The notes under the pieces are model-generated. The model did no database searches and was not told the DNA's origin. It worked only from the letters and a program-made list of their open reading frames with translations. A stretch of 64,000 bases of DNA, taken from Larsenimonas salina (GTDB taxonomy: Bacteria > Pseudomonadota > Gammaproteobacteria > Pseudomonadales > Halomonadaceae). A program made the position numbers and the translations under genes. This document shows, piece by piece, positions 20,937 through 42,294 of the stretch; the first letter of the stretch is position 1; every line of letters starts with the position of its first letter. The stretch spans positions 186,001 through 250,000 of the forward strand of contig NZ_JAMLJJ010000004.1 in NCBI RefSeq assembly GCF_023736155.1. The letters run 5' to 3'.

Positions 20937-22256
20937 TCACACTGTATCGATCGAACCATGGTCTAACGTGTGACCTACCGTAGCCACTGCTAATGCGCTC
21001 GGCGGTTGAGCAAAGGTATCGTCCAACGCTTCATCAGCCAGCGTCCAAATCATGTTTTCAGCATCGTAGTAAAGGTCTTCCAGCCAAGGAGTATTACCTC
21101 GATTTTCTTCTGAGAGCGCAAACCCCAGCAGCACCTCCGCCTTAGTGACCCCGTTGTCCATGGCATCACGCCAGTAATCGAATCCGGCCTGATCCGGGTG
21201 GCGATCCAGCGAATTGAGATACAACCGTTCGATATACCCAGCATTATCCCTGGCCCCAAAGCGAATCATGAATTCAGGAGAATCTGCAAAGGCGCCGGCA
21301 ATCGACGTCAGCTGCATACCGCCTGCCGACTGGTCCACCCAGTAATTCAGCCCGGCTTCCTCAGGCCGCCGATCCAACGCCGACGCGTACAGCAGCGTGA
21401 TGTTCTCGGCATCAGTCGCCGAGAGGTCGACCGCCCCTGTTAAATCACCTTCCAGCCGCGCGAGCGTCTCATCGATCCACGTTTGATAATGGCTGACACG
21501 TTGCCAGGCCGCTACTTCACCGAAACTGCTATCCAGAGTGGCATTGACATCAAGGCGCTCGCCATTTTGCAGCATATACTGAGACGTATAGCTGGCCACG
21601 CCTGCAATCTTACCCCCAAGAAATGCGGGCCCGCCGCTGTCGCCCGGCGCAATCAAACCTTCAACGCGCCCAAGCCCCGTGTCGGTTAGCCCGAGTAATC
21701 GGTCAAAACTGTCGTAGCGCGCTGTTCCGTTATCGAAATCACTCAGAAGCTGTGACCCCACCGGCGCCCGCGGCCCCCACATTTGATCGAGCGCATCCTG
21801 CGTAGTATCCAAGCGGTTTTGTACCATGGTGCGCACGCCGCCACTCCCGGTGACATACCCCTGCTCTCCTGTGCCGGTGATGCCGTAGCCCACTAACGTT
21901 GCCACTTGTGACAACTCGTCGCTGCCACGGTACAAGGTGTAGCGCGGTATGGATAAAGGTGCGGCTTCACCAAACCACAGCAGCGCCAGGTCGTTGGCAA
22001 ACCGAGCTTCGCTGTAGTCTGCATGCAGATGAACACTCTCGACCGGCAGCCACTGGCGCCCTGACGGGGTATCAAAGGCAACCCGTACCGGGCCTGCACT
22101 GTTCTCCACGACATGCGCTGCCGTAAGAACCGCGCGCCCGCCCATCAAAAGCGAGCCAGAACCAAATTTTGAGGCCGTCGCAACCAGCCCGACACCATCC
22201 CAACCATCCCCGACATGGGATATGAATTGATCGTTATACCGCGTGACGGTAGTCAT
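20937..22256 (-). CDS. Trypsin-like serine protease with two C-terminal DUF4214 units, putative type I secreted
   Basis: A 439-residue protein with a chymotrypsin-fold catalytic domain (about 1-265): LTAAHVV (H48), NDLALL (D89) and APGDSGGPA (S207), the full triad. Two DUF4214 units follow, LLYASALDRRPEEAGLNYW (about 285) and LYLNSLDRHPDQAGFDYW (about 345). There is no N-terminal signal peptide and no cysteine, features common in type I secretion substrates. A complete type I exporter lies 15 kb away in the island. I start at the ATG nine bases after GAGG; an ATG two codons earlier is too close to it. Likely role: processing or turnover of the surface protein encoded nearby. Both role and export route are inferred. 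Confidence 0.82.
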   Translation of the reverse strand: MTTVTRYNDQFISHVGDGWDGVGLVATASKFGSGSLLMGGRAVLTAAHVVENSAGPVRVAFDTPSGRQWLPVESVHLHADYSEARFANDLALLWFGEAAPLSIPRYTLYRGSDELSQVATLVGYGITGTGEQGYVTGSGGVRTMVQNRLDTTQDALDQMWGPRAPVGSQLLSDFDNGTARYDSFDRLLGLTDTGLGRVEGLIAPGDSGGPAFLGGKIAGVASYTSQYMLQNGERLDVNATLDSSFGEVAAWQRVSHYQTWIDETLARLEGDLTGAVDLSATDAENITLLYASALDRRPEEAGLNYWVDQSAGGMQLTSIAGAFADSPEFMIRFGARDNAGYIERLYLNSLDRHPDQAGFDYWRDAMDNGVTKAEVLLGFALSEENRGNTPWLEDLYYDAENMIWTLADEALDDTFAQPPSALAVATVGHTLDHGSIDTV

Positions 22257-22537
22257 CAGCATCTACCTCGAGCAAAAAGCAACGGCCCAATAGGCTGCTC
22301 GCCTTTCTGGATACGATGCATTGTTTGGGGGAAACGACCACCATGGCAATGCACGGCGGTGATACTGGAATTAACGGCCTGGCCACCGGCCCCTGAAGAC
22401 CTGACAGATCACACCATGCGTTGCCCACCCACTGAAATGACACGCTTTTTTTGATACGTCGCCCAGGCGCTCATGCCGCCAACGCCTGGCAACGACCGGG
22501 GTGCGAAAAGCAATAACGAGCATCAAGGCACCCCTTG
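22257..22537. other. Leader region of the protease gene
   Basis: About 280 bp between the sapC terminator hairpin and the protease start. It should contain the protease promoter. No further gene or repeat was identified. Confidence 0.45.
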
Positions 22538-22580
22538 AAAAACGCCCTGCCGAGCGTTCCAGAAAACGCTCGGCAGGGCG
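22538..22580 (-). terminator. Strong intrinsic terminator after sapC
   Basis: A perfect 16-bp inverted repeat (22543-22558 with 22565-22580) has a 6-nt loop and, on the minus strand, is followed by five T. It lies about 80 bases beyond the sapC stop and separates sapC from the protease gene. Confidence 0.9.
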
Positions 22581-22657
22581 CGAGGGTGGATGCATTAAAA
22601 TGCCAAAGAACAGAGCACCGAGCATTGACGGTGCAAGGTAGACACAGGGACATGTGC

Positions 22658-23419
22658 TTATTGATCGAAATCGAAGATTAGATCGTCATTGTCAGCGAAC
22701 AGACGTTCAAAGCCCTCTTGCATGGCCTCGGTGCCCGGATTGTGCCGAGCCATTCTGGCAAGTAGGTGCGCCTGCGACAGCGACAGATTGACCGCGTACG
22801 CCACCGGCAGGGCCTGCGAGGCTCGAAGCTTCAAAAACGCGGTGTCATCCAGCGCTGCCAGCCGGCGTTCATCTACCATGTGCACCTCTGGCATGGTCAT
22901 GCCCACACGGGACTGCAATGACTCGGGCCACGGCGTAAGCAGGCCCGCCTCATAAAGCGCCGCCACCGCCGACTGAGTCGTTTGCTGCTTGCCCCAGCTG
23001 GCCTTCAAGGTGGCGATGATTTCTGCGGTTCGCCCGCAGGGCTGGCCCTTGTCATCAAAGAATGGTTCTCCGCTTTGCTCGCTCAACAGATTGCTCGCCT
23101 GATCGAAGGTGACCACGCGCCGGTCCCCGGCCTTTAACACATCAAACGGCCAGGTGGTCAGCCACTGGGGCCGGTACTGCCCCAACCACTGCCCCTGTTT
23201 GATAAACACATTACGCTCGGAAGTAAGGCCGCACACACCCACCAGCTGCCAGGTACCGCCAAGGCTTGCCAGGGCCAAGGGCATGCTGAAGGCCGCCTCG
23301 GCCATTTCGCCGGCATGCAAAGGCACCAACGGCTGATCGGCGGCAAAGTCCAGTGTGTGGGAGGGCAGCCACCCAAGCCCACGGCATTTCATCGGGCTGA
23401 TGATGAACGGATTGGCCAT
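22658..23419 (-). CDS. SapC family protein
   Basis: A 253-residue soluble protein of the SapC family, named after a gene at the Campylobacter fetus S-layer locus and usually found near surface-layer or surface-protein genes; its molecular role is unknown. Typical segments are GLGWLPSHTLDFAADQPLVPLHAGEM, with basic and aromatic positions conserved, then FIKQGQWLGQYRPQWLTTWPF and RVVTFDQASN, and an acidic C-terminus (DNDDLIFDFDQ). It has no signal peptide. The start is ATG 23419 behind AAGGAG. It follows the S-layer-like gene, separated by a hairpin terminator, so it is likely transcribed by partial read-through. Confidence 0.85.
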   Translation of the reverse strand: MANPFIISPMKCRGLGWLPSHTLDFAADQPLVPLHAGEMAEAAFSMPLALASLGGTWQLVGVCGLTSERNVFIKQGQWLGQYRPQWLTTWPFDVLKAGDRRVVTFDQASNLLSEQSGEPFFDDKGQPCGRTAEIIATLKASWGKQQTTQSAVAALYEAGLLTPWPESLQSRVGMTMPEVHMVDERRLAALDDTAFLKLRASQALPVAYAVNLSLSQAHLLARMARHNPGTEAMQEGFERLFADNDDLIFDFDQ

Positions 23420-23437
23420 GGTCAGCTCCTTATCACA

Positions 23438-23467
23438 GAAAAAACCCCCGGCCGAAGCCGAGGGTTT
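23438..23467 (-). terminator. Intrinsic terminator between the S-layer-like gene and sapC
   Basis: On the minus strand, AAAACCCTCGGCTTCGGCCGGGGG followed by a run of six T forms a stem with a TTC loop. It lies 33 bases after the S-layer-like stop and only 19 before the sapC start, so it may act as a leaky terminator setting a high protein-to-SapC ratio. Confidence 0.85.
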
Positions 23468-23499
23468 TACGGTTAACACCGTTATACGTACCAGAACAA

Positions 23500-25263
23500 T
23501 CAGGCGACTGTTACAACACCGTCGTCGGTTACGGAGATACCGGTGATTGGAACAGTACCGTCAGAGGTCAGAGCCAGGTCGACGTTGGACGTGTCGCCGT
23601 CGGCGAATGTCTCAACCGTCAGGACACCGCTGTCTTCGTTAAAGAAGTACTCGAGCATGCTGTCGTCACCGTCGACGTTACCGTCGGCATCGAAGGAGCC
23701 CTGGGTATAGCCGCTGCCCAGATAAATCGCGTCGTTGTCTTCCAGAGTGACAGTGGAAGTTTCCGTCGCTTCCTTATCGAAGACAAACAGATCTGCACTG
23801 CTGTTTGTACCTGTAAAGGGCCCTGCGCCGTTGAGATCAACCTCGTCAAAGCCCAGATCATCCTGTGCGCTCTCAACATCGTCTTCCGCAGATTCAACTG
23901 CGTCTTCAGCTGCCTGCAGCGTGGCCTGGTCAGACTGGGCGGTTTCGATGTTTTCACGCAGGGTTTCACGCGCTTCGACCGCATCTACTGCAGCTTGATA
24001 CTCACCGAACTCACCGTCAGTTGAGGTAGCGTCGTTAATAGCACTCTCGGTATCTGCGGCCGCGTCTGCCAGGTCGTTGCGCTGGTCAAGCGTGGTCAGC
24101 AGGCTTTCAACGCTGTCGCCCGTGGCGCCGTCGGCCAGAATGCTTGCGTCATTGGTACCGCTGAACACGTTGTCATAGGCGGTACCTACGGCGTCGAGGA
24201 AGGCATCAGCATTAACATCACTGGAAGGGTCACCCAGATAAGTTTCCGCCGCGGTCTGAATGTCGCCTAAAACTGTAGCACTACCACCGGGACTAGAGTC
24301 AATCTCGTCATTGTTGGCCAGATACGCCGCAATGGCTGCATTCACGTCAGCTGCCAGGCTTACGTTAGAGCCGTCGGCGCTCACGTCGTTTTCAAGCGCA
24401 GTTTGCGCCGTGAGGTAGTTGGAGAACAGCTGGCTGGCGGAGAGCGTGCCACCAGCGGTGCCATCGGCATTGAATTTACCATCAACCGCACGAACCGCGG
24501 CGGCGGCGTCAGTCACGGCCTGCTGAAGCTCGGCATCGGTGCCATCGTTGATGAGCGAGGTTTGCAGCTCGACCTGCTGGTCTTTCAGGTAGTCGGTAAC
24601 GTCTTGAGCCTCTAGATCATCAGCATCACTGCCATCCTGATTGTCGTAGGCATCAAACAGTGAGGAGTTCTCGAGATCATTCAGCGCCGAAGTGAAGTTC
24701 TGATTCGCCAGATCCAAAGACGCTTCAGCGGTCTGGAGGGTTTGGTAATTGGCGGCAACACCACTGAGGTCCTGCATGTCATTGATCTGCTGGATCGCGG
24801 CATCAAAGTCGGCACCCGCATCCTCGCCGCTGATGCCTGAAAGCAAAGCCTTGGCGCTGTCAGCGTCGTAGCTTGGGGCGTTTTCAGTGTAGTAGTCGGC
24901 CGCGCGCTCTTTGGTGTTGAGCACGATGCGGTCGTTGCCCTGGGCGCCGGCCATGATGGATACAGCGATCTGTGCCAGAGAGCTCTCACCAGACTCGAGC
25001 AAATCGGAGTAGAAGTTGACACCTTCCTGTTCAGCGCTGCGACCAAACATCTGCTGATACAGGTTGGTGATCAGCTCTTGGCTGGACAAACCGCTTGAAA
25101 GCTCGGTGAACTCTTCTGACGTACCAAATGCGTTAACGATGGCAGCATTGCCTTCCGCATCGGCGCGGTCAGCCCAGAATTCCAGGCCTTCCTTGTCGGC
25201 AGGACGGCCATAATAGGCCACATAAAGAGATTGGACGTAGTTGAGAGATTCTGTTGTTGCCAT
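23500..25263 (-). CDS. S-layer-like secreted protein with two N-terminal DUF4214 units
   Basis: A 587-residue, strongly acidic protein with no cysteine and very few lysines. Two DUF4214 units lie at the N-terminus (SLYVAYYGRPADKEGLEFW, about 12-30; NLYQQMFGRSAEQEGVNFY, about 67-85). A long Ala/Asp/Ser-rich helical middle (about 130-470) follows, then a beta-rich C-terminal domain containing SADLFVFDKEATETSTVTLE and ending TDDGVVTVA. There is no signal peptide, so type I secretion through a C-terminal signal is likely. The composition, SapC neighbour and type I exporter suggest an S-layer or other abundant surface protein. No RTX nonapeptides are present. AGGAG precedes ATG 25263. Confidence 0.8.
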   Translation of the reverse strand: MATTESLNYVQSLYVAYYGRPADKEGLEFWADRADAEGNAAIVNAFGTSEEFTELSSGLSSQELITNLYQQMFGRSAEQEGVNFYSDLLESGESSLAQIAVSIMAGAQGNDRIVLNTKERAADYYTENAPSYDADSAKALLSGISGEDAGADFDAAIQQINDMQDLSGVAANYQTLQTAEASLDLANQNFTSALNDLENSSLFDAYDNQDGSDADDLEAQDVTDYLKDQQVELQTSLINDGTDAELQQAVTDAAAAVRAVDGKFNADGTAGGTLSASQLFSNYLTAQTALENDVSADGSNVSLAADVNAAIAAYLANNDEIDSSPGGSATVLGDIQTAAETYLGDPSSDVNADAFLDAVGTAYDNVFSGTNDASILADGATGDSVESLLTTLDQRNDLADAAADTESAINDATSTDGEFGEYQAAVDAVEARETLRENIETAQSDQATLQAAEDAVESAEDDVESAQDDLGFDEVDLNGAGPFTGTNSSADLFVFDKEATETSTVTLEDNDAIYLGSGYTQGSFDADGNVDGDDSMLEYFFNEDSGVLTVETFADGDTSNVDLALTSDGTVPITGISVTDDGVVTVA

Positions 25264-28585: not shown

Positions 28586-29616
28586 CTCTTCCCTCCAATG
28601 AGTTGTTCGGTGACCTGCTGCCAACTGATGCCAGCTCGGTGATATGCGGCAGTCGCACACCGCCCCATTTCAGCTGAACGCACGCGATTATGCCAAGCGT
28701 CATCGATCGCCGCTGCAATGGCTTGCGGCTCAGGCGCAACGATCCAGCCGGTTTCACCATGAGATACGAATTCGCACGGACCACCGCTGTCCTTACAGGT
28801 AATCACCGGCTTGCCGGCCAGCATGGCCTCCAGCGTGATATAGCCGTAATCTTCATCATATGGGCCAAAGAAGACCGCCATGGCGTGTGCGTACCAGGCA
28901 AGTTTTTCTTCCTCGCTAAACCCACCCAGTAGACGAACACGATCATCCAGCCCGTGTTGTTCGATCAACTGACGGTAGCGTTCACGCTGCCCCCCTTCTC
29001 CGGCAATCAGTATCTTGGCAGGGGTTTGAAGGTAACGGGCTGCCTCAATCAACAAATCTTGCCGTTTAAGGCTTTCCAGCCGGCTGGGACAGAACACATA
29101 ACCCCACTCTTCATCGCAATAGAAGCGCTCGGCATTATACGGAGGGTGGTACAAGGGCCGTGCTTCGAGCTGATTGTAAGTGTGCAAACGTTCGGCAACC
29201 CGGCGTGAGTTGGCGAACAACCGGCGCGCTTTAGAGAGGTGACAGTTATCGAACGCATGAACGGCGCTTTTAAGATGACGCTGTTCAGCGTTTGCCTGTT
29301 TTTCGTCCCAAAGCTCGTACATGGCTCGATGCTGGTGCATGACCCAAACGGTATGATCCGGGTGATTCACACCATAGCCTGGAAACTGAAGGCTGATGAC
29401 TCGATCGATCGACACGCCATTGGGTGCGGTCATGTCGAGGCTTTCAACATAGGCCATCAAACGCTCGATCTCAGCCTCTGGCTGGAAACGAAAGGGAAAA
29501 CGAAGCAGCTCTACACTATGGCCTTGCTCGCGCAATGCGCGCGCCACACCCTCTATGTGATAATCGGCGCCTCCACGCATAAAGGGAACCAAATTGGCCG
29601 TCAGCAAGATTTTCAC
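28582..29616 (-). CDS. GT4 family glycosyltransferase
   Basis: A 344-residue GT-B enzyme. The N-terminal acceptor domain starts KILLTANLVPFMRGGADYH. The C-terminal donor domain contains FCPSRLESLKRQDLLIEA, ILIAGEGGQRERY and the E-x7-E-type block YDEDYGYITLEAMLAGKPV. The last block and the following DSGGPCEFVSHGETGW are nearly the same as in module 1 of the neighbouring double enzyme, so the pair probably arose by duplication. GTG 29616 overlaps the methyltransferase stop by four bases. The sugar donor is likely GDP-mannose given manC, but this is inference. Confidence 0.87.
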   Translation of the reverse strand: MKILLTANLVPFMRGGADYHIEGVARALREQGHSVELLRFPFRFQPEAEIERLMAYVESLDMTAPNGVSIDRVISLQFPGYGVNHPDHTVWVMHQHRAMYELWDEKQANAEQRHLKSAVHAFDNCHLSKARRLFANSRRVAERLHTYNQLEARPLYHPPYNAERFYCDEEWGYVFCPSRLESLKRQDLLIEAARYLQTPAKILIAGEGGQRERYRQLIEQHGLDDRVRLLGGFSEEEKLAWYAHAMAVFFGPYDEDYGYITLEAMLAGKPVITCKDSGGPCEFVSHGETGWIVAPEPQAIAAAIDDAWHNRVRSAEMGRCATAAYHRAGISWQQVTEQLIGGKR

Positions 29617-31169
29617 ACCGACACCTCCCCGTCATCCAGCGCCCGATCAGCACGTTTGGCCATCATCTCGTTGTCTGAAGCCTCGCCCTCTTTCACCGGT
29701 GCACGCTTAAGGCCAACAGCAGCAAAATCTTGAGGACCACAAAGGTGTCCATTGACACGTGCTGTCAGAGGGTCGTCCCCCGGGACTTTCGCCTCTTCGG
29801 GATAGGGGTTGAATCGCAGCACTTCGACGCTTGAAAAACCGTGGTAGCGCAGCATGAATGTGACGGCAGTTGGAGTCAGCGGGTTACGGTGGGTGGGGTC
29901 ATGGTAAAAGGTATGACTGCCTACCAGCACGTTTTCCGGATTGGGCGTTTCAAGTATTAGGACGCCCCCGGGGACCAGAATGCGGTGAGCCTCATTTACC
30001 ATCGTATAAAACACATCAAATGGCAGGTGCTCAGCAATATGAAAGCCACTGACAAGCGCATGGCTGTTATCTGGCTGGCGCCGCAGGCATTCGATAATAT
30101 CGCCTTGCTCGACTGAAAAGCCCGCATGCTGACAGTGATCGATCATGGCAATATTGAGATCAACCCCATGAGGGTCAAACCCTTGTTCGGTTAACAGCGC
30201 TAACCATTCGCCGCGCCCGCAGCCGAGATCAAGCGCCTTATTTCCGGCAGCCAAGGCAATATCAAGCTGCGGTTGATATTTACGAAGATGGACAGCAATC
30301 GCATCTTCACTGCCACGACAGGCATCTTCGAATGCAAGGTACCATGCGTCAATCAAGTCCTGTGACAATTGGGTTGACTGCTCTGATGTATTGACAACAC
30401 TTTCAGAGGACGCCAGTTTTTCCACGGCACGACGATGGTGCTGAAGTGCGCTCCAAAGCGCTGCCTGATAACGCTCCTGCTCGGACAGTATATGTTTCTG
30501 CTGATCGAGCTCATGCTCAAAAGAACCAAGTTGCGCGCCCTGTGACTCGAGCGTTGCAAGTAGACGCTGTGTTTCTCCATCAAGCTCTATCAAAATATCG
30601 CGTATTAATTCGCCATTGCGTTGCTCTTTAACCTCCAGGCATGAAAGGCGCGCAAGCAGACGCAAACGTGGACGTATCGCAATTGAGGCCATGCGATAAA
30701 TGGGGCGTAGGACAACATGCACTCCTCGCCTCAGTGGACCGAACTTTCCGGCGATCCTGAAGGGCAGTGTCAATGCGCCTCGACGCGGAATAACGACATT
30801 TTCTCGAGCTAGATACGCCTGCGCTTCATCCGCGCAAAGCAAAACAGCCAAGATGTAAAGCCTACCGGCGCGCGGCAAGAGATCTAGGTAGTGGTTCATA
30901 CCGCCGCTATCGGCTGCACGACCCATCAATATCTGATACGCACGATCAATAAAAAGCTCATCACTTAGATGAGGTGCAAAAAGCTCCTCGAAACAAGGAT
31001 GATGTAGATTTAAAACGTCTTGCTTGTAAGCATCTTCGCTGAGCTCATTCAAACAATGGCGCCATGTATATGACGGAGGTTCACTACTAGGTGATTGTGT
31101 ATCGATTTGACGCGCCACAACCTTGAGTCGATTAACAAGGCCATCGATATCATTAAATGTCTGCGACAT
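29613..31169 (-). CDS. Coiled-coil SAM-dependent methyltransferase with N-terminal DUF4214-like unit
   Basis: A 518-residue protein. Residues about 72-97 (ELFIDRAYQILMGRAADSGG) look like one DUF4214 unit. Residues about 178-255 form a probable coiled coil rich in Glu, Gln and Leu. The class I methyltransferase domain spans about 275-490, with motif I KALDLGCGRGEWL, later SGFHIAEHLPFD and RILVPGGVLILETPNPEN. It sits between Wzt and the glycosyltransferases. In E. coli O8/O9a the methyltransferase WbdD caps the polymannan and uses a coiled coil as a length ruler. A similar capping role is inferred here, though the domain order is reversed. Confidence 0.8.
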   Translation of the reverse strand: MSQTFNDIDGLVNRLKVVARQIDTQSPSSEPPSYTWRHCLNELSEDAYKQDVLNLHHPCFEELFAPHLSDELFIDRAYQILMGRAADSGGMNHYLDLLPRAGRLYILAVLLCADEAQAYLARENVVIPRRGALTLPFRIAGKFGPLRRGVHVVLRPIYRMASIAIRPRLRLLARLSCLEVKEQRNGELIRDILIELDGETQRLLATLESQGAQLGSFEHELDQQKHILSEQERYQAALWSALQHHRRAVEKLASSESVVNTSEQSTQLSQDLIDAWYLAFEDACRGSEDAIAVHLRKYQPQLDIALAAGNKALDLGCGRGEWLALLTEQGFDPHGVDLNIAMIDHCQHAGFSVEQGDIIECLRRQPDNSHALVSGFHIAEHLPFDVFYTMVNEAHRILVPGGVLILETPNPENVLVGSHTFYHDPTHRNPLTPTAVTFMLRYHGFSSVEVLRFNPYPEEAKVPGDDPLTARVNGHLCGPQDFAAVGLKRAPVKEGEASDNEMMAKRADRALDDGEVSV

Positions 31170-31206: not shown

Positions 31207-32412
31207 TCAAGACTTGTTTACTGTGTCTGTAACCATTTCGATAGGCAGACGGCAAACACCAGAAAAGATATTATGTTTGAAACCGGCAACTTCAAACTGC
31301 AGGTAGCCATCACACCACCAGTAACAATCATCAAGATGATGCTCACGGCTATGAAGTGCTGCAGTTAGAGTATATTTACCAGGGGCAATATCAGCGCAAA
31401 TACTGATTCGAATAAAACGACGCTCGCCAGCTGCAAATGATAGTGTTTCCCCTAACTGAAAGGTATTAAAACCAAATATATCCTGACCGAAGCGGTCTCT
31501 TATTAATAAACCCAGCGTCACCTCTTCAATGCTTTTCTTGGCCTCTAATTCCAATTGAATATCCAGCATTTCACCGCTGGAAATTGAACTTGCCAAACTT
31601 TCACGTCCCGTAGCTTTTCCCTGGATTATCTGTATTTCGCCGCTACCATAGGCCCCTTGGTCACGGTCGGCTCGACGCCCCTCTTCTTCTTCGGCTTGAC
31701 GTGCCATGATGCGATTATATACGTTAACCGCATCATCAGGGCTTCCTTGAAATACAATGCTTCCCCCTTCGATGACCAGCGCTCTATCACACAGCATTTT
31801 TACAGCGTTTAAATCATGCGATACAAAAAGAATGGAGCCACCGCGCTGCTTGAACTCGCGGATTTTTTTCATGCATTTTTGTTGAAAATAACCGTCCCCG
31901 ACTGACAGAGCTTCATCGACCAAAAAGCAACGTGGGTCAGCATGGATCGCGATCGAAAAGGCCAGGCGCATAGTCATTCCCGAGGAATAGGTGCGAAGTG
32001 GCTCATCTATATAGGCACCGAGCTCTGAGAATTCGACGATTTCGTTACGTTGTTCTTCGATTTCAGCATGGCTCATGCCAAGCATCAGGCCGTTGGCAAT
32101 GATATTTTGAAGGCCAGTTAACTCAGGGTTGAATCCTGTCCCCAGTTCCAGAAGACCAGTAATTCTGCCATCAACTTCAATCTCACCACTGTCTGGTAAT
32201 AACACACCAGTTATCAATTTGAGCAAGGTCGATTTGCCAGCACCATTACGGCCCAGAACTCCGAGAACCTCTCCCGGAGAAACACTGAAGGAAATATCAT
32301 CGAGTGCTTTATAGCAGCTATGGTGTACATGACCGGTAACGGCCTCCCGAAAACGATCAAGAGGCCGATCAAATAATTTAAACGTTTTTTCGAGGCGTCT
32401 GATTTCTATCAT
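31207..32412 (-). CDS. wzt: Wzt, ATPase of ABC O-polysaccharide exporter with C-terminal carbohydrate-binding-type domain
   Basis: A 401-residue protein. The N-terminal nucleotide-binding domain (about 1-240) has Walker A GRNGAGKST (about 54-62), signature YSSGMTMRLAF, Walker B CFLVDEALSVGD and the H-loop in FVSHDLNAV. It is followed by a beta-rich C-terminal domain (about 265-400). In O8/O9a systems this domain binds the modified polymer end and licenses export; systems that export unmodified polymers usually lack it. It therefore predicts a terminal cap, which fits the adjacent methyltransferase. AGGAG precedes ATG 32412. The permease gene is 9 bp upstream in the operon. Confidence 0.92.
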   Translation of the reverse strand: MIEIRRLEKTFKLFDRPLDRFREAVTGHVHHSCYKALDDISFSVSPGEVLGVLGRNGAGKSTLLKLITGVLLPDSGEIEVDGRITGLLELGTGFNPELTGLQNIIANGLMLGMSHAEIEEQRNEIVEFSELGAYIDEPLRTYSSGMTMRLAFSIAIHADPRCFLVDEALSVGDGYFQQKCMKKIREFKQRGGSILFVSHDLNAVKMLCDRALVIEGGSIVFQGSPDDAVNVYNRIMARQAEEEEGRRADRDQGAYGSGEIQIIQGKATGRESLASSISSGEMLDIQLELEAKKSIEEVTLGLLIRDRFGQDIFGFNTFQLGETLSFAAGERRFIRISICADIAPGKYTLTAALHSREHHLDDCYWWCDGYLQFEVAGFKHNIFSGVCRLPIEMVTDTVNKS

Positions 32413-32421
32413 TTCAATCTC

Positions 32422-33225
32422 CTACAGACAGTCCCTTAAATCACGCTCAGTGCGCTTCAGAAGCCAAACTGAAAGCCCTAATACAAATAAGGTTGCCAGC
32501 GTGAATAGAAAAATCGGTAATAAATCCGGCACTTTATGGAGCATAATAAGTGAACGGTAAGACTCAACCAAAGTAAAGAAAGGATTAAAGTGCATCCAGT
32601 GCATTACCCAAGAAGGTAAAATATCAGTAACGTAAACAATTGGCGTCACCCAAAACCAAACTTGCAAAACTACAGCAACAACTTCCTTGACATCTTTTAA
32701 ATATATTGAAAGTATTGCCAAACCTAACCCTAACGAGTAGACAAACAAGCATTGCAACAGGAAAACTGCAGGTACTAATAAAAAATAAAAGGAAAGAGGA
32801 AAGCCAATTATCAGCAAAAACCCTATAAAAAAAGCCATACTAATAGCATAAACTATAGCCTCAGCTAAAATCACAGAAAGTGGCATAGCAAACAAAGAAA
32901 GATTCACTTTAGTAACGAGATGCCGATGATCTCTAAAAAGGTTTGTTATTCGGGCGATACCATTTGCAAATGCTGTCCACGCCAACACACCGCTAATCAA
33001 ATATATGCTGTAAGCGTATTGATCTATATCAACTCCAAATCCTTCAAGCCGTGCCCCCATAATGCGAGAAAAAACCAGAACAAATACTAAAATATTAACT
33101 AGTGGAGCGATAAAGGTCCATGTAGCGCCGAGCGCCGAACCGGTATGCCTCTCGATTAGATCCTGCCGCGTAAGGTGCAAGATAACAGGCAAACTGTCTT
33201 TTATTCTACAAAAACGATCAAGCAT
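32422..33225 (-). CDS. wzm: Wzm, ABC-2 type permease for polysaccharide export
   Basis: A 267-residue inner-membrane protein with six predicted helices and the ABC-2 permease layout. It has a cytoplasmic amphipathic N-terminus (RQDLIERHTGSALGATWTF), a first helix pair near 35-85, and the conserved WFWVTPIVYV and FNPFFTLVESYR segments toward the C-terminus. It pairs with the Wzt ATPase to carry undecaprenyl-linked polysaccharide to the periplasm. No wzx or wzy is visible in the window, so the island uses the ABC-transporter route. The gene is visibly A+T-richer than the flanking chromosome. Confidence 0.93.
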   Translation of the reverse strand: MLDRFCRIKDSLPVILHLTRQDLIERHTGSALGATWTFIAPLVNILVFVLVFSRIMGARLEGFGVDIDQYAYSIYLISGVLAWTAFANGIARITNLFRDHRHLVTKVNLSLFAMPLSVILAEAIVYAISMAFFIGFLLIIGFPLSFYFLLVPAVFLLQCLFVYSLGLGLAILSIYLKDVKEVVAVVLQVWFWVTPIVYVTDILPSWVMHWMHFNPFFTLVESYRSLIMLHKVPDLLPIFLFTLATLFVLGLSVWLLKRTERDLRDCL

Positions 33226-35646: not shown

Positions 35647-37098
35647 TTATTTTTCTTCTTTAGAGCTATCTGGCGTACGACCATAAATATCATCAAATCG
35701 CACGATATCATCTTCCCCAAGATAACTACCCGTTTGCACCTCAATCAAACGAAGAGGGATTCTACCAGGATTCTCAAGACGGTGAATTTTGCCTAATGTG
35801 ATATAAGTTGATTCATCTTCTGAAAGCAGAAAACTTTCGAATTTTTCCAACTCCCCAAGAGTAACCCGCGCTGTACCGCGCACAACTACCCAATGCTCAG
35901 CACGATGATGGTGCATCTGTAGTGATAGCCGTTGACCAGGATTGACCACGATTTCTTTAACCTGAAATCCATCAGCAAGAACCATAGTACGATAATAGCC
36001 CCATGGACGATATATATGTTTATGGTTCAAATACTCAGAGCGTTGATGAGATTTTAAAAGATTTACAACTTCTTTGGTTTGCTGAGCGCTTGCACGATCT
36101 GTAACCAAGACAGCATCGTCCGTTTCAACAATAATAAGGTTATCAACACCAATGGCTGCTACAAGTCGTGATTCGCTACGCACATAACTATTACGACACT
36201 CACGAAGCAAAACATCACCATGCGTAGCATTACCATTATCCGAATCTGGCTTTGCTTTGAGATCATAAAGTGCATCCCAAGCACCAATATCGCTCCAGCC
36301 TGGATTCATGGGTATCACTGCAGCATTACGAGTGTGTTCCATTACAGCATAATCAATGGAATCGCTTCGGCATGTAGAAAATATGGATTCTTTAAACCTA
36401 ACAAAATCAAGATCCTTTTGGCGTTGTTCGAAAGTTTCTTTACAGGTTTTTAAAATATCAGGAGCATACTCTGACAGCTCATTAAGATAGCACTTGGCCC
36501 TGAACAAAAAAATGCCACTATTCCAAAGATATTCTCCGCTATCTAAATATTCTTGTGCTTTTAACTTATTCGGCTTTTCGACAAATGAAGAGATTGAAAA
36601 ACCTTCACCTAATTCACTCGCCTTATGAATATAGCCATATCCAGTATTCGGAAACAGAGGTTCGACACCAAAAGTAACAAGATTATTATTTTCAGAAAGC
36701 TCTAAACCAAAATTTACTGCCTTAATAAAACTAGAGTTATCTTGGATAACATGGTCGGCCGGCATAACCAATAAAGTGGGATCACTATCATTTTCAAGCG
36801 CAGAAAGCGCAGCTAGTGCCAGTGCTGGAGCGGTGTTGCGCCCGACTGGTTCCAAAAGTAAAGATGACGGTGTTATACCTATATTTTGCATTTGCTCTGC
36901 AACTAAGAATCGATGTTCTTCGTTACAAACAAGTATTGGTCTACAACAATTCTCAAGCCCATTGATGCGCAGAGCCGTTTCTTGAAGCAAGCTGTGTGTT
37001 TCTGAGTTGAGATTTAAAAATTGCTTGGGATAATGCTCGCGTGATACTGGCCATAAGCGAGAACCTGAGCCGCCTGAAAGAATAACAGGAAATATCAT
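35647..37098 (-). CDS. manC: Mannose-1-phosphate guanylyltransferase / mannose-6-phosphate isomerase
   Basis: A 483-residue bifunctional type II enzyme that makes GDP-mannose. The N-terminal nucleotidyltransferase domain (about 1-290) begins with the GTP-binding SGGSGSRLWPVSREHYPKQF, then VMPADHVI and FVEKPN. The C-terminal cupin phosphomannose isomerase domain has YRPWGYY, QRLSLQMHHHRAEHWVVVRG and ENPGRIPLRLIEVQTG. It is the first gene of an eight-gene minus-strand operon reaching 26048, with gaps of at most 37 bp and several overlaps. AGGAG precedes ATG 37098. Its presence is the main reason to expect a mannose-containing polymer. Confidence 0.95.
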   Translation of the reverse strand: MIFPVILSGGSGSRLWPVSREHYPKQFLNLNSETHSLLQETALRINGLENCCRPILVCNEEHRFLVAEQMQNIGITPSSLLLEPVGRNTAPALALAALSALENDSDPTLLVMPADHVIQDNSSFIKAVNFGLELSENNNLVTFGVEPLFPNTGYGYIHKASELGEGFSISSFVEKPNKLKAQEYLDSGEYLWNSGIFLFRAKCYLNELSEYAPDILKTCKETFEQRQKDLDFVRFKESIFSTCRSDSIDYAVMEHTRNAAVIPMNPGWSDIGAWDALYDLKAKPDSDNGNATHGDVLLRECRNSYVRSESRLVAAIGVDNLIIVETDDAVLVTDRASAQQTKEVVNLLKSHQRSEYLNHKHIYRPWGYYRTMVLADGFQVKEIVVNPGQRLSLQMHHHRAEHWVVVRGTARVTLGELEKFESFLLSEDESTYITLGKIHRLENPGRIPLRLIEVQTGSYLGEDDIVRFDDIYGRTPDSSKEEK

Positions 37099-37459: not shown

Positions 37460-39076
37460 CTAATCTGCCTCTCCTGCTTCTATTATAGTGCTAATTTGAT
37501 GCATCACCTCAATAAGATCTTCTGTAGCTAACTTACCACTGGCAGCTTTAAGATTGAGCCTATCCAATAATAATTGACGAAAGGTTTCCACGTATTGGAT
37601 TCGCTGCGAATACAGGTCGGCACGCGCCCCAAGCACATCGACCAGATCGCGCAGGCCAAGAGCGGCACCCTTGTCTGCGGCTTCAAGGTAGAGTTCGCCG
37701 GAACGAATGGATTGAGCAAGCGCCTCAAGACGGGTGATGTCTCCACCAATGTTGCGATGATACTGCCGCATTTTTTCCAGCGACTGCCGACGAGCGTCAC
37801 TGACGTCCGCCATGGCCGCCTGTTGGCGCAGCTCTCCCTGACGAATACTGGTACTGGTATAGCCACCCCGGTACAGATTCATCCGGGCCTGTATGGTGGC
37901 TGTCTTGTCCTCGCTTTCCCGATAAGGGTCATCGCTGTTGCGATCCTGCCAGGTCAGATTGAGATTGACCTCCGGATAATAGCCCGCCTGGCGAGTGCTG
38001 GTATCGGCGCGCGCCACTTTAAGCTGCGACTGCGCCAGCACGACTTCTGCATTGTTGCTGATCAGGGGCTCCATCTGGTCGAGTGGCGGCGGTGTTTTAA
38101 ACCCCTCGTCCGGAAATGTGCTCAATGCAAAATGATCAAAGTCAGGGGAAACGCCGGTCAGGCGTTCCAGAGTCGATCGAGCATTATCGTAGTCGTTTCG
38201 GGCCGCTGCGATATCGGCAAGGGTACGATCATGCTCGGAGCGCGCCGCCAGAAGGTCGATCCGATCTCCGATGCCCAAGTCATAGGCTCTTTGCGCCTGA
38301 GTAACCTGAAGTTCCAGTGATTCACGCTTGCTTGCCAGCAGCTCAACACGCCTGGAAAGATAGAAGGCATTTAGATAGGCCTCGGCCGTCTCCAGCGCCA
38401 GGTCTCTCTCATTGACCACAATCTGTTGCTCGGCAGCATCGCGCTGACGGTTGGCCTTTTGAACCTGACGAATGCGCTCCATTGAAAACAGGGGCTGAGA
38501 GAGCCTGATCTGACGTGTCGTGTCAGTAGATCTCCCCTCACAACGGCGCTCGAACTCGGACCCGGCCGCCGGCTCGCCCGTCTCGGGGTTTTGCACGCAG
38601 CTATTTAGATTGCCGTCGGTGTAGATATTGTCGCTTTCGGTATAGCTGCGCAGCACCGTAACATCGATCTGTGGCTTGAGACGCGCCCATGCCATGGGCA
38701 CTTCCAGACCTGTCGCCTCGGCTTGGAGGCGCTGACTGGTCAGCGAAGCGTCGTTTTCAAGCGCGCGTGCAAAAAGCACCGGCAATGAGGGCACGGTATT
38801 GGCATAAGATACCTGCGACTTCGACGCCGAAATAGTCTGACGACTTGACCCTCCATTTCGGGCCGACAACGGCATCTGCTCACTTGATGATAGCGAGGGC
38901 AGCGCCGCACCGTTCGACTCGTCCCGCTTCGTGAGATTCAGCTGGACGGCGCCATTGGCTTCACCGGTGTCTATTTGCATCATGAAGTCATTGCCGGAAG
39001 CCGGTACGCTCGTTAGTGCCACGCCGCTAAAAAGCAGGGTACCGATACTCCACAATGTGCGCCGAAAATGGGTCAT
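37460..39076 (-). CDS. TolC-family outer membrane protein of type I secretion system
   Basis: A 538-residue outer-membrane efflux protein with an N-terminal signal peptide (MTHFRRTLWSIGTLLFSGVALTSVPASG, cleavage near residue 28). An unusual Ser-rich linker of about 75 residues precedes the TolC repeats (about 95-530). Typical motifs are LSQPLFSMERIRQVQKA and, in the second repeat, AQSQLKVARADTSTRQAGYYPEVNL and LYRGGYTSTSIRQ. It is the last gene of a three-gene operon (ABC, HlyD, TolC-like), 9 bp after hlyD. A separate housekeeping tolC lies at 60211-61695, so this copy is dedicated to the island's exporter. Confidence 0.93.
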   Translation of the reverse strand: MTHFRRTLWSIGTLLFSGVALTSVPASGNDFMMQIDTGEANGAVQLNLTKRDESNGAALPSLSSSEQMPLSARNGGSSRQTISASKSQVSYANTVPSLPVLFARALENDASLTSQRLQAEATGLEVPMAWARLKPQIDVTVLRSYTESDNIYTDGNLNSCVQNPETGEPAAGSEFERRCEGRSTDTTRQIRLSQPLFSMERIRQVQKANRQRDAAEQQIVVNERDLALETAEAYLNAFYLSRRVELLASKRESLELQVTQAQRAYDLGIGDRIDLLAARSEHDRTLADIAAARNDYDNARSTLERLTGVSPDFDHFALSTFPDEGFKTPPPLDQMEPLISNNAEVVLAQSQLKVARADTSTRQAGYYPEVNLNLTWQDRNSDDPYRESEDKTATIQARMNLYRGGYTSTSIRQGELRQQAAMADVSDARRQSLEKMRQYHRNIGGDITRLEALAQSIRSGELYLEAADKGAALGLRDLVDVLGARADLYSQRIQYVETFRQLLLDRLNLKAASGKLATEDLIEVMHQISTIIEAGEAD

Positions 39077-39085
39077 GCCTTCTCC

Positions 39086-40471
39086 TCAGTCCTGACGCAT
39101 GGAGCGGTTGAGCATATCGGTTACAGGCTGCATCAAGTAATCGAAGAGCGTTTTCTCACCCGTTTGAATCATGATCTCAGCGGGCATGCCGGAGAGTAGC
39201 TGCATATTCTCGGTCATCTGCTCTCGCCCTTCCTCCGAGACCTGAAGCAGTGCCTTGTAATAACGCGAGCCGGTGTTTTCATCTTCAAAGCTATCTGCCG
39301 AGACGTGATCCACCACACCATCAACCACTGGCGCGCGGCGCTGATTAAAGGCGCTGAAACGGATTTCGGCCGACTGGCCACGGTAGATATTGTCAATATC
39401 CTGAGCAGGTATGCGCGCCTCAACCATGAAGCCTTCATTGGCAGGCACGATACTCATGATGGGCTCACCGGCCCGAACCACGGCACCGATGGTGTGAATA
39501 TCAAGGCCGACGACAGTGCCACTGACCGGAGCCTTAATATCAGTACGACCCACTTGATCCTGAAGGGCCACCATGCGCTCACGTGAATCGGAGATCTGAG
39601 ATTGTGCCTGGCGCAATTGCTCGCCAATTTCCTGCTGATAGTTTTGTTGTTGAGATTCGATACGCGAGCGGTTTTCGCTAATTTGGGATTTTAACTGCGC
39701 GATTTGTGCCCGTGCCCGAGCGGTCTCGGATTCAGATTGCAGGACTTGGCGCTGAAGTTCGCGAATACGCTGATTATTGCCAAGCCCTTCCTTGAAGAGC
39801 GACTGGTAGTCTTCCACTTCACTACTCAAGGAAGAGATCCGTTTTTGATCGATACTGATGGTTTTTGTCAGACCATCGATTTGTTCGCGATATTGCTGAA
39901 TTTGATCATTAAGGGCAGCGATCTCGCTTTTCAGTGAACTACGACGCGAGAAGAACAGACTTTTTTGAACCGCCATGATCTGCTGAAAACGATCATTGTT
40001 CTGCACCATTTTCGTTAGCTCATCCGGAAAGGTCATGCTGTCGCTCCCCTGCTGTTCTGCAAGCAGCCGGGCTTCCTGAGCGCTGGCAATGAACCAGTTG
40101 GCACGTGCGATATCATATTGAGAGCGGGACTGGGTGCCATCCAGTACCATCAACACATCGCCTGCTTCCACATGATCGCCGTCGCGCACATTGATTTGAT
40201 CAACGATACCGCCCTCAAGGTGCTGCACCGTCTTTTTAAAGCTTTCAACCGAGACAGTCCCGCTGGCAACAACCGCGATGGAAAGCTGGGCCAAGGCAGC
40301 CCACAGTCCGAACCCCCCAAAGGCGACCAGCAGGATAATAATACCGGCCAATTTCACCTTTCGGTCACTGGTAGGCAGTTCAGGGCGCTGACTGCCCGAA
40401 CTGCCCTGACTACCTGGCGTACGGTTGCCTTCCAGAAAGGTCTGGCTGCCAGCAACAACATCATTTGCCAT
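39086..40471 (-). CDS. HlyD-family type I secretion periplasmic adaptor (PrtE-like)
   Basis: A 461-residue membrane fusion protein. One membrane helix lies near residues 38-60 (LAGIIILLVAFGGFGLWAAL). The first half of the biotinyl-lipoyl domain contains VQHLEGGIVDQINVRDGDHV, followed by a long coiled-coil hairpin (about 130-315) and the second half (VGRTDIKAPVSGTVVGLD). The C-terminal beta-barrel contains ARIPAQDIDNIYRGQSAEIR. This is the PrtE/HasE type that works with metalloprotease, lipase and S-layer exporters. It links the inner-membrane ABC protein to the TolC-like channel. The gene lies 50 bp after the ABC gene. Confidence 0.95.
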   Translation of the reverse strand: MANDVVAGSQTFLEGNRTPGSQGSSGSQRPELPTSDRKVKLAGIIILLVAFGGFGLWAALAQLSIAVVASGTVSVESFKKTVQHLEGGIVDQINVRDGDHVEAGDVLMVLDGTQSRSQYDIARANWFIASAQEARLLAEQQGSDSMTFPDELTKMVQNNDRFQQIMAVQKSLFFSRRSSLKSEIAALNDQIQQYREQIDGLTKTISIDQKRISSLSSEVEDYQSLFKEGLGNNQRIRELQRQVLQSESETARARAQIAQLKSQISENRSRIESQQQNYQQEIGEQLRQAQSQISDSRERMVALQDQVGRTDIKAPVSGTVVGLDIHTIGAVVRAGEPIMSIVPANEGFMVEARIPAQDIDNIYRGQSAEIRFSAFNQRRAPVVDGVVDHVSADSFEDENTGSRYYKALLQVSEEGREQMTENMQLLSGMPAEIMIQTGEKTLFDYLMQPVTDMLNRSMRQD

Positions 40472-40521
40472 GAAAGGAAACTCCAGAACTTACAGAAATG
40501 GTGACAGGAACTCGCCGGTCT

Positions 40522-42294
40522 TTAGCTTTTTGAAGCGTGCCCCGAGACTGATTTACGACCATGCTCGTTAAGAGATGTCGGCGGCTTGCTGCCTTGATCA
40601 GCGGGTTTACGCTGGCGAGCAAAGCGGTTTAGTACTTCATCCCGTGGGCCGAACATGCTGACCTGCCCATCCTTGAGCACAAGAAGTTTGTCCATGCTGC
40701 TAAGTACACTGGTGCGATGCGAGATGACAAAAACGGTAGTACCTTCTTCCTTGAGCACCGCAATCGCTTTGGCAAGAGCCCTTTCACCACTGTCATCCAG
40801 ATTGGAATTGGGTTCATCGAGCACAACCAGTACCGGTTTCCCATAGAGCGCACGCGCCAGGCCGATGCGCTGTCTTTGACCACCGGAAAGTGCACCGGCA
40901 GAAGCCGATATGAAGGTGTCGTAGCCATCGGGCTGCTGCAGAATCATTTCATGAACACCAGCACGCTGAGCGGCTTCGACCACACGTTGGGCATCCACTT
41001 CACCAAACCGCGCGATGTTTTCACTAATGGTGCCATCGAACAGTTCGATGTCCTGGGGCAGATAGCCGATCCAGGGGCCTAGTTCATGGCGATTCCATTG
41101 AGTGATATCGGCCCCGTCCAGACGAACCTTGCCGACTTGGGTAGGCCAGATCCCAAGGAGAACCCTGGCAAACGTCGACTTACCTGAAGCACTAGGTCCG
41201 ATGACCCCAATGTGCTCCCCCTTACCTACTTCGAACTGCACACCGCGAATGGTCGACATTCTTGCCCCCGGGGGGCCTGCGGCGATGCCTTCGATGCTCA
41301 CCCGCCCTGTCGGATCAGGCAGTGACATTCTTTCGCTTTCAGCAGGGATGTCGTTGAGCAACGTTTGCAGGCGCTCATGGGCGTTTCGGGCGCCTACAAA
41401 TCCTTTCCATGCACCAATCATCTGATCGATCGGTGCCAGAGCGCGCCCCATCAGAATGGAACCTGCGATCATCATTCCGGGGCTGATCAAACCGTCGATT
41501 ACAAGCAACGCACCCAATCCTAGAATCAAGGACTGAAATAACATCCTTAATACTTTTGAAACATTGGACAGAGTGCCGGCACGATCACTGGCCCAGGATT
41601 GCTTGATCAGAAATTCTCGATGGCGAGCGGCCCAACGCTGGCGTATCCCGGGGAGAATGCCCATAGCGTGCAACACTTCGGCATTGCGAAGGTTGGAATT
41701 GGCAAGCTCCTGAGCCTTTATCTGCTCACTGCTGGCCTCGGCCAGAAGTTTCCGAGTGGCATACTCATTGGTGATGGCCAATGCGAACAAAATCACGCCC
41801 GCACCAATGGCAAATACACCGAACCACACATTGAACATGAAAAGGACAGCGATATAGACCGGAATCCAAGGAGCATCAAAAAAGGCAAAGAGACCATTTC
41901 CGGTCAAGAACTGCCTAAGACTTGTCAGATCATTGAGGGGCTGCGCGGTCTGCTGACCGGGAGTCAGAAGGCTTTTTCGAAACATGGCCCCATAGAGCCG
42001 ATCGCTTACCAGCGTATCAATTCGATTACCCACTCGAACCAAAAGGCGGGAGCGCACGATCTCAAGCCCACCCATGACAACGAAAAGGAAGATTACAATC
42101 AAAGTCAGCATCAACAGCGTCGCTTCACTTCGAGTAGTGATGACCCGATCATAGACCTGCAACATGTAAAGAGGCGGTACCAGCATCAAAAGGTTGATGA
42201 ACATGCTGAATACGCCCGCAGAAATGAAGGAGTTTCTACACGCTTTTAGCGCCACCCCAAGGTCGGAAGGAGGCTGTTTTTGCTTCGAAGGCAT
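40522..42294 (-). CDS. Type I secretion ABC transporter, PrtD/RsaD-like
   Basis: A 590-residue half transporter. The membrane domain (about 20-320) has about six helices with PPLYMLQVYDRVITTRSEATL, the signature start of the PrtD group, and no N-terminal C39 peptidase domain. The ATPase domain has Walker A GPSASGKST, Q-loop YLPQDIELFDG, signature LSGGQRQRIGLARAL and Walker B LVVLDEPNSNLD. Such transporters export unprocessed substrates with C-terminal signals, for example proteases, lipases, HasA and the Caulobacter S-layer protein RsaA. The candidate substrates here are the two DUF4214 proteins of the island. Confidence 0.95.
   Translation of the reverse strand: MPSKQKQPPSDLGVALKACRNSFISAGVFSMFINLLMLVPPLYMLQVYDRVITTRSEATLLMLTLIVIFLFVVMGGLEIVRSRLLVRVGNRIDTLVSDRLYGAMFRKSLLTPGQQTAQPLNDLTSLRQFLTGNGLFAFFDAPWIPVYIAVLFMFNVWFGVFAIGAGVILFALAITNEYATRKLLAEASSEQIKAQELANSNLRNAEVLHAMGILPGIRQRWAARHREFLIKQSWASDRAGTLSNVSKVLRMLFQSLILGLGALLVIDGLISPGMMIAGSILMGRALAPIDQMIGAWKGFVGARNAHERLQTLLNDIPAESERMSLPDPTGRVSIEGIAAGPPGARMSTIRGVQFEVGKGEHIGVIGPSASGKSTFARVLLGIWPTQVGKVRLDGADITQWNRHELGPWIGYLPQDIELFDGTISENIARFGEVDAQRVVEAAQRAGVHEMILQQPDGYDTFISASAGALSGGQRQRIGLARALYGKPVLVVLDEPNSNLDDSGERALAKAIAVLKEEGTTVFVISHRTSVLSSMDKLLVLKDGQVSMFGPRDEVLNRFARQRKPADQGSKPPTSLNEHGRKSVSGHASKS

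Follow-up and report, generated by a model that had tools for sequence, protein, structure and literature searches.

In Gram-negative bacteria with surface layers, misassembled subunits need handling, and in Caulobacter this job has been ascribed to SapA, a metalloprotease that carries the HExxH zinc motif and is exported by the type I system of the S-layer itself. Another described surface-layer locus is sapCDEF of Campylobacter fetus. The S-layer protein of Caulobacter, RsaA, is secreted in the unfolded state by the type I system RsaDEF and binds the O-antigen of lipopolysaccharide (LPS) through its N-terminal domain (residues 1-249), according to passages of PMC8828063 and PMC11026435. A SapDEF-type exporter together with SapC is proposed for the S-layer proteins of Chromatium okenii in a passage of PMC6374484, and a passage of PMC12896265 mentions the deletion of Caulobacter sapA to avoid cleavage of S-layer fusions.

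The window, i.e., the whole 64-kb stretch of DNA that was analysed, is from a salt-loving bacterium and contains a locus comparable to these systems (Table 1). It is similar to the C. fetus and C. okenii loci in having SapC and a type I secretion system (T1SS), and it is similar to the Caulobacter locus in having T1SS genes along with O-antigen genes. Glycosyltransferases are also present. The gene considered here encodes a serine protease with a C-terminal DUF4214 tail. This enzyme may be a type I-secreted surface protease that is docked through DUF4214 and acts on proteins of the surface-layer locus, a reading that falls slightly short of an even chance. The interpretation given in the preliminary description, a secreted protease of the surface-layer type built on the S1 fold, is partly supported.

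Table 1. Features of the surface-layer locus, in window coordinates
Feature	Position	Strand	Basis
Signal-less S1-fold serine protease with DUF4214 tail, 439 aa	20937..22256	(-)	translation, Pfam, alignment
Catalytic domain, residues 1-270 (H48, D89, S207)	21447..22256	(-)	Pfam, alignment, fold match
Two DUF4214 units, residues 280-390	21087..21419	(-)	Pfam, model
GAGG, likely ribosome-binding site for start 22256	22266..22269	(-)	read from sequence
Likely transcription terminator in the sapC-protease gap: strong hairpin and U-run	22537..22581	(-)	-37.6 kcal/mol, z -8.5
SapC family protein (PF07277), likely start 23419	22658..23479	(-)	Pfam; start read from sequence
587-aa acidic Cys-free protein with two N-terminal DUF4214 units; candidate surface-layer protein (role inferred)	23500..25263	(-)	Pfam
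Methyltransferase with DUF4214 unit, beside Wzt	29613..31169	(-)	DUF4214 27.1 bits, cut-off 23.2
Wzt-type ABC ATPase with Wzt_C domain	31207..32412	(-)	Pfam
ABC-2 membrane protein (Wzm-type)	32422..33225	(-)	profile search
Mannose-1-phosphate guanylyltransferase / mannose-6-phosphate isomerase type protein (ManC-type)	35647..37098	(-)	profile search
TolC-like outer membrane protein of T1SS	37460..39076	(-)	just under NCBIfam cut-off
HlyD-type T1SS adaptor	39086..40471	(-)	TIGR01843, 402 bits
PrtD-type T1SS permease/ATPase	40522..42294	(-)	TIGR01842, 767 bits

The program-made open reading frame of the protease begins at 22262, two codons before 22256; the latter start is favoured by the GAGG site and by the start position in relatives. 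The strong hairpin with its U-run probably separates sapC and the protease gene into different transcription units. A scan for consensus promoters and terminators gave a result at or below the shuffled expectation, missed this hairpin and was discarded.

The catalytic triad reported in the preliminary description is complete and was found in the translation at H48 (TAAHVV), D89 (ANDLAL) and S207 (APGDSGGPAF). It is invariant in 17/17 aligned catalytic domains, the broken protease copies of genomes G236 and G245 having been left out of this alignment. These two copies contain frame changes or stops (G245:C1:1492274-1493085 and G236:C88:29806-30616). A Trypsin domain is recognised by Pfam with E 2e-11. 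The AlphaFold model of residues 1-270, which is of middling confidence (pLDDT 64.6) and weak in the second barrel, has a clear chymotrypsin fold; its best VIA match is MASP-2 (Z 19.4, rmsd 3.0 Å over 201 residues), with which many other S1 proteases tie. Having both the triad with GDSGGP and, as modelled, the two-barrel fold, the protease is a member of peptidase family S1. In contrast to trypsin in the strict sense, which has Asp at the base of the S1 pocket (position 189, six residues before the active Ser), the protease has L201 there; Asp occupies this position in 0/17 aligned domains, and cleavage after Lys or Arg is therefore unlikely.

The HExxH zinc motif is absent from the protease translation, so the enzyme is not a member of the SapA family. 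It is like SapA in its proposed role, being an S-layer-locus protease without a Sec signal and with a tail thought to carry the export and anchoring functions, and differs from it in being an S1 serine protease. The best reading of the analysis is a serine protease that may fill the role of SapA, with trimming, release and quality control of the surface protein, the activities suggested at first, being indistinguishable here. A serralysin-like competitor (PF08548) was represented by partial matches only, of at most 38.4 bits, in 7/19 protease genomes, where proteases of other kinds may well be present; in the genome of the window, the match scored 24.2 bits and lay in a 2358-aa open frame.

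Searching 275 genomes of the same family with the catalytic domain revealed relatives in 19, the genome of the window included, and a scan of named genomes with the same domain gave 80 loci. From these 80 loci and the window protease, 75 rows with at least 200 model positions were kept (L130, L134, L136, L140, L146 and L153 failed this filter). The tree comprised 65 catalytic domains after ten rows under 95 bits had been dropped, the equally weak L147 and L152 being retained, and export labels were assigned to it by hand. The window protease falls into a single clade of 34 tree rows (support 96/94), whose members come from gamma-, beta- and alphaproteobacteria, Campylobacterota and Thermodesulfobacteriota and have no recognisable Sec signal. 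Three further signal-less rows (L110, L113, L131) are placed outside the clade. Most of the remaining rows either possess an N-terminal signal, often together with a PEP-CTERM-like tail, or form part of long proteins. The Sec-exported, PEP-CTERM-tailed relatives from planctomycetes, cyanobacteria and acidobacteria share a homologous catalytic domain but differ in having their own N-terminal signal, often Cys in the domain, and a C-terminal anchor; they stand apart in the tree.

In 23/34 clade rows, an in-frame stop occurs no more than 17 codons upstream of the catalytic domain and leaves no room for a Sec signal, compared to 1/41 of the others. An N-terminal hydrophobic stretch is present in 1/34 clade rows vs. 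26/41 others; the sole clade row is L076, whose stretch precedes a probable later start. Cys is missing from the catalytic domain in 30/34 clade rows vs. 22/41 others. L120, which has an N-terminal extension and an unsure start, was counted as a signal-less member of the clade. The window protease itself has no Cys, a pI of 4.35 and an N-terminus without a strongly hydrophobic stretch, which confirms the initial observation that both Cys and a Sec or Tat signal are missing. The catalytic His follows the native N-terminus at a distance of exactly 47 residues in 15/15 close relatives (window protease included), which all begin with M-V, M-T, M-P or M-S; this distance is 63 and 85 in two distant relatives. 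The constant N-terminus of 47 residues might be a hint, admittedly a speculative one, that the protease needs no propeptide.

The distribution of the protease is related to that of the surface-layer and export genes. SapC was found in 19/19 protease genomes and in 80/256 genomes without the protease among the 275 of the family. Both genes are on one contig within 30 kb in 16/19 genomes and on separate contigs in G194, G237 and G253. The protease and Wzt_C are on one contig within 45 kb in 12/19 genomes and on different contigs in six, with no Wzt_C match in G253. Two genomes of the same genus contain neither the protease nor SapC. Among the 80 named loci, SapC or PrtD was present in the fetched stretch of 20/36 signal-less loci (L110, L113 and L131 counted as such) vs. 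0/44 others. PrtD scored above the cut-off in 19/22 genomes with signal-less forms vs. 2/12 genomes with Sec-type forms; as for the three misses among the 22, the PrtD of G306 is truncated by the end of its contig, and the scores of G315 and G316 stay under the cut-off. The p-values (1.1e-9, 1.1e-4 and, for the locus linkage of 33 clade loci vs. 47 others that include the signal-less SapC-bearing L110 and L131, 3.3e-7) serve as a guide only, since they overstate independence, the genomes being related and the family-genome and named-locus sets overlapping (e.g., L074 is a contig of G185 and L087 a contig of G009). SapC as a general marker of genomes with signal-less forms was rejected: in the wider set, its enrichment per genome was not significant (11/22 vs. 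3/12, p 0.15), and it is the locus linkage that is significant instead.

In L092 (Campylobacterota), the protease is followed downstream by two other ORFs and then by SapC, PrtD, HlyD and TolC. SapC with the PrtD-HlyD-TolC order, here in company of a protease, resembles the C. fetus and C. okenii systems. The SapC of this locus (L092:7579-8991) forms a fusion with a transposase-like domain of the IS200 Y1 type (Y1_Tnp, 35.3 bits), and the SapC open frame of G306 has the same length of 472 aa.

Two proposals of the preliminary description, export by a route other than Sec and an association with a surface-layer locus, are supported by the signal-less clade, by the linkage to SapC and PrtD, and by the T1SS and the O-antigen exporter in the window. 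Judged by this pattern in the sequences, type I export of the protease has good support. With regard to a possible uncleaved C-terminal secretion signal, relatives often end in acidic-plus-hydrophobic residues, and the window protease ends with ...DHGSIDTV. The PrtD-HlyD-TolC set at 37460-42294 is a candidate exporter only, because the same genome has a second PrtD-type exporter with HlyD (L156:8665-13040) and, on contig C4, a T1SS-like ATPase that is less closely related. An acidic 382-aa protein encoded beside the second PrtD on the opposite strand may be a substrate of that exporter. The lack of a Sec- or Tat-like signal would also agree with a cytoplasmic or otherwise non-exported protease. 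This is very improbable in view of the calcium-binding-type tails of the relatives, the linkage to PrtD and the acidic Cys-free composition. No paper joining trypsin-like proteases, type I secretion and Calx-beta was found in the open-licence literature, where absence is weak evidence; in the available text of PMC8224329, the terms for trypsin-like, type I secretion and S-layer occur in unrelated places.

The C-terminal part of the window protease matches DUF4214 (PF13946) in Pfam with 101.7 bits (cut-off 23.2) and E 2.3e-29 in two stretches. The clade is constant in the protease part and variable in the tail, which may be Calx-beta, RTX or DUF4214. Calx-beta and RTX repeats are typical of type I secretion substrates. 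Calx-beta tails occur in most clade members and were confirmed by Pfam in all three tested (L061, L092 and the plasmid-borne L154). The tails of L056-L060 consist of RTX and other repeats, with RTX confirmed by Pfam in both tested (L057 and L059).

In L067 (Bisbaumannia pacifica), L066 (genome G235) and L154 (a Pseudomonas plasmid), a protease with a Calx-beta-type tail is accompanied by nearby genes for separate DUF4214 proteins. The DUF4214 parts of these are 49% (L067) and 50% (L066) identical to the DUF4214 tail of the window protease; the identity is 36-43% for those of L154, which also carry RTX repeats according to Pfam. The window protease gene would therefore seem to join two parts that lie side by side in other genomes. 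The C-terminal units were at first said to match the S-layer-like neighbour; both do belong to the DUF4214 family, but the tail is only 19% identical to the DUF4214 part of the 587-aa candidate surface protein. In L067, a 230-aa ORF (L067:5816-6505) between SapC and the separate DUF4214 protein has no Pfam match at E 0.001. Methyltransferases adjoining Wzt with a DUF4214 unit occur both in the window (29613-31169) and at L067:13143-14717 (27.2 bits, cut-off 23.2), and the methyltransferase at L154:12294-13745 scores just under this cut-off (21.4 bits). In the Pseudomonas loci L154 and L155, the set of protease, DUF4214 and O-antigen genes is plasmid-borne. IS transposases are annotated in L155, and the plasmid of L154 contains two protease genes, three RTX-DUF4214 proteins and O-antigen genes.

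The variability of the tail is what would be expected of a general exoprotease secreted by a type I system for nutrition or competition and merely situated in a genomic island together with genes for surface and secreted proteins, as the tail would then only need to provide an export signal and calcium binding. The prevalence of Calx-beta or RTX tails in relatives, the absence of a DUF4214 match in 9/19 protease genomes, the absence of the protease from 80/99 SapC genomes and the plasmid-borne copies are in line with this explanation. The repeated linkage to SapC, PrtD and Wzt and the presence of DUF4214 in the protease, surface protein and methyltransferase of the window argue against it, and a general exoprotease is considered rather unlikely, though with an appreciable chance. 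Proteases that release adhesins are a known comparable case, and the enzyme could serve the maturation or release of a large adhesin, or of some other protein exported from the locus, instead of acting on the surface-layer lattice. Large DUF4214 open frames do occur on the protease contig in some relatives (e.g., 1446 and 1975 aa in G231 C26). There is none of this kind in the window, where the nearest exported candidate is the 587-aa protein, and an adhesin protease appears improbable.

For a surface protease docked through DUF4214, the fold of this domain is of particular relevance. Its model (pLDDT 91.5) was aligned by VIA-align with O-antigen-bound RsaA of Caulobacter (6z7p_A) at a middling Z of 6.8 (rmsd 3.7 Å, 126/131 residues) and with the Caulobacter S-layer protein 6t72_A at Z 6.6, values that, by the tool's own note, may reflect merely a common arrangement. 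Phycobilisome linker domains score higher than RsaA (best Z 7.6, rmsd 5.5 Å), and all other kinds of structure are at Z 3.6 or below. RsaA was not among the best 50 of 121 Foldseek rows obtained with the model. The DUF4214 profile matched mainly phycobilisome linkers among solved structures (best E 2.5e-7) and did not retrieve RsaA; SapC and each DUF4214 stretch, searched as single sequences, had no match among solved structures. In a Halomonas study, a passage of which describes a SWISS-MODEL alignment, 88 residues of a DUF4214 protein were aligned to the Caulobacter S-layer protein (PMC11970703), and DUF4214 and S-layer are named together in PMC11970703 and PMC12780176. In the open-licence literature, no paper was found joining DUF4214 with SapC, or DUF4214 with RsaA and lipopolysaccharide, an absence of little weight, and the match found for DUF4214 with type I secretion concerns type VI systems. 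The O-antigen-binding part of RsaA may be similar in fold to DUF4214, but RsaA is a lattice protein and not a protease, the fold match is weak, and there is no sequence-profile hit. The docking of the protease on the O-antigen by DUF4214 has moderate support, with the Halomonas alignment and the DUF4214 unit of the methyltransferases adjoining Wzt as independent hints.

The proposed sequence of events is as follows. The protease would be made without a Sec or Tat signal. A PrtD-type T1SS, most likely the set at 37460-42294, would export it unfolded in a single step, and it would fold outside the cell. It would then be held by its C-terminal DUF4214 units on the O-antigen polysaccharide that this locus makes and to which the surface protein with the N-terminal DUF4214 units would be anchored as well. 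On the surface, it could cleave proteins of the surface-layer locus, which we infer to be its substrates, either as misfolded or misassembled subunits or at maturation sites. A bolder and more doubtful extension regards DUF4214 as a module for O-antigen recognition that is placed N-terminally on the surface-layer protein, C-terminally on a watchdog serine protease lacking a propeptide, and on the methyltransferase beside Wzt. If this were true, the polysaccharide would be a docking address for the whole exported set, and unfolded secretion would replace zymogen activation of the protease.

If the proposed role is true, the widespread signal-less S1 clade, with its links to SapC and to type I exporters, would show that an enzyme unrelated to SapA has solved the problem of misassembled surface-layer subunits. 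A testable role would also follow for DUF4214, which has no assigned function and is shared among surface proteins, proteases and O-antigen enzymes at loci of this sort.
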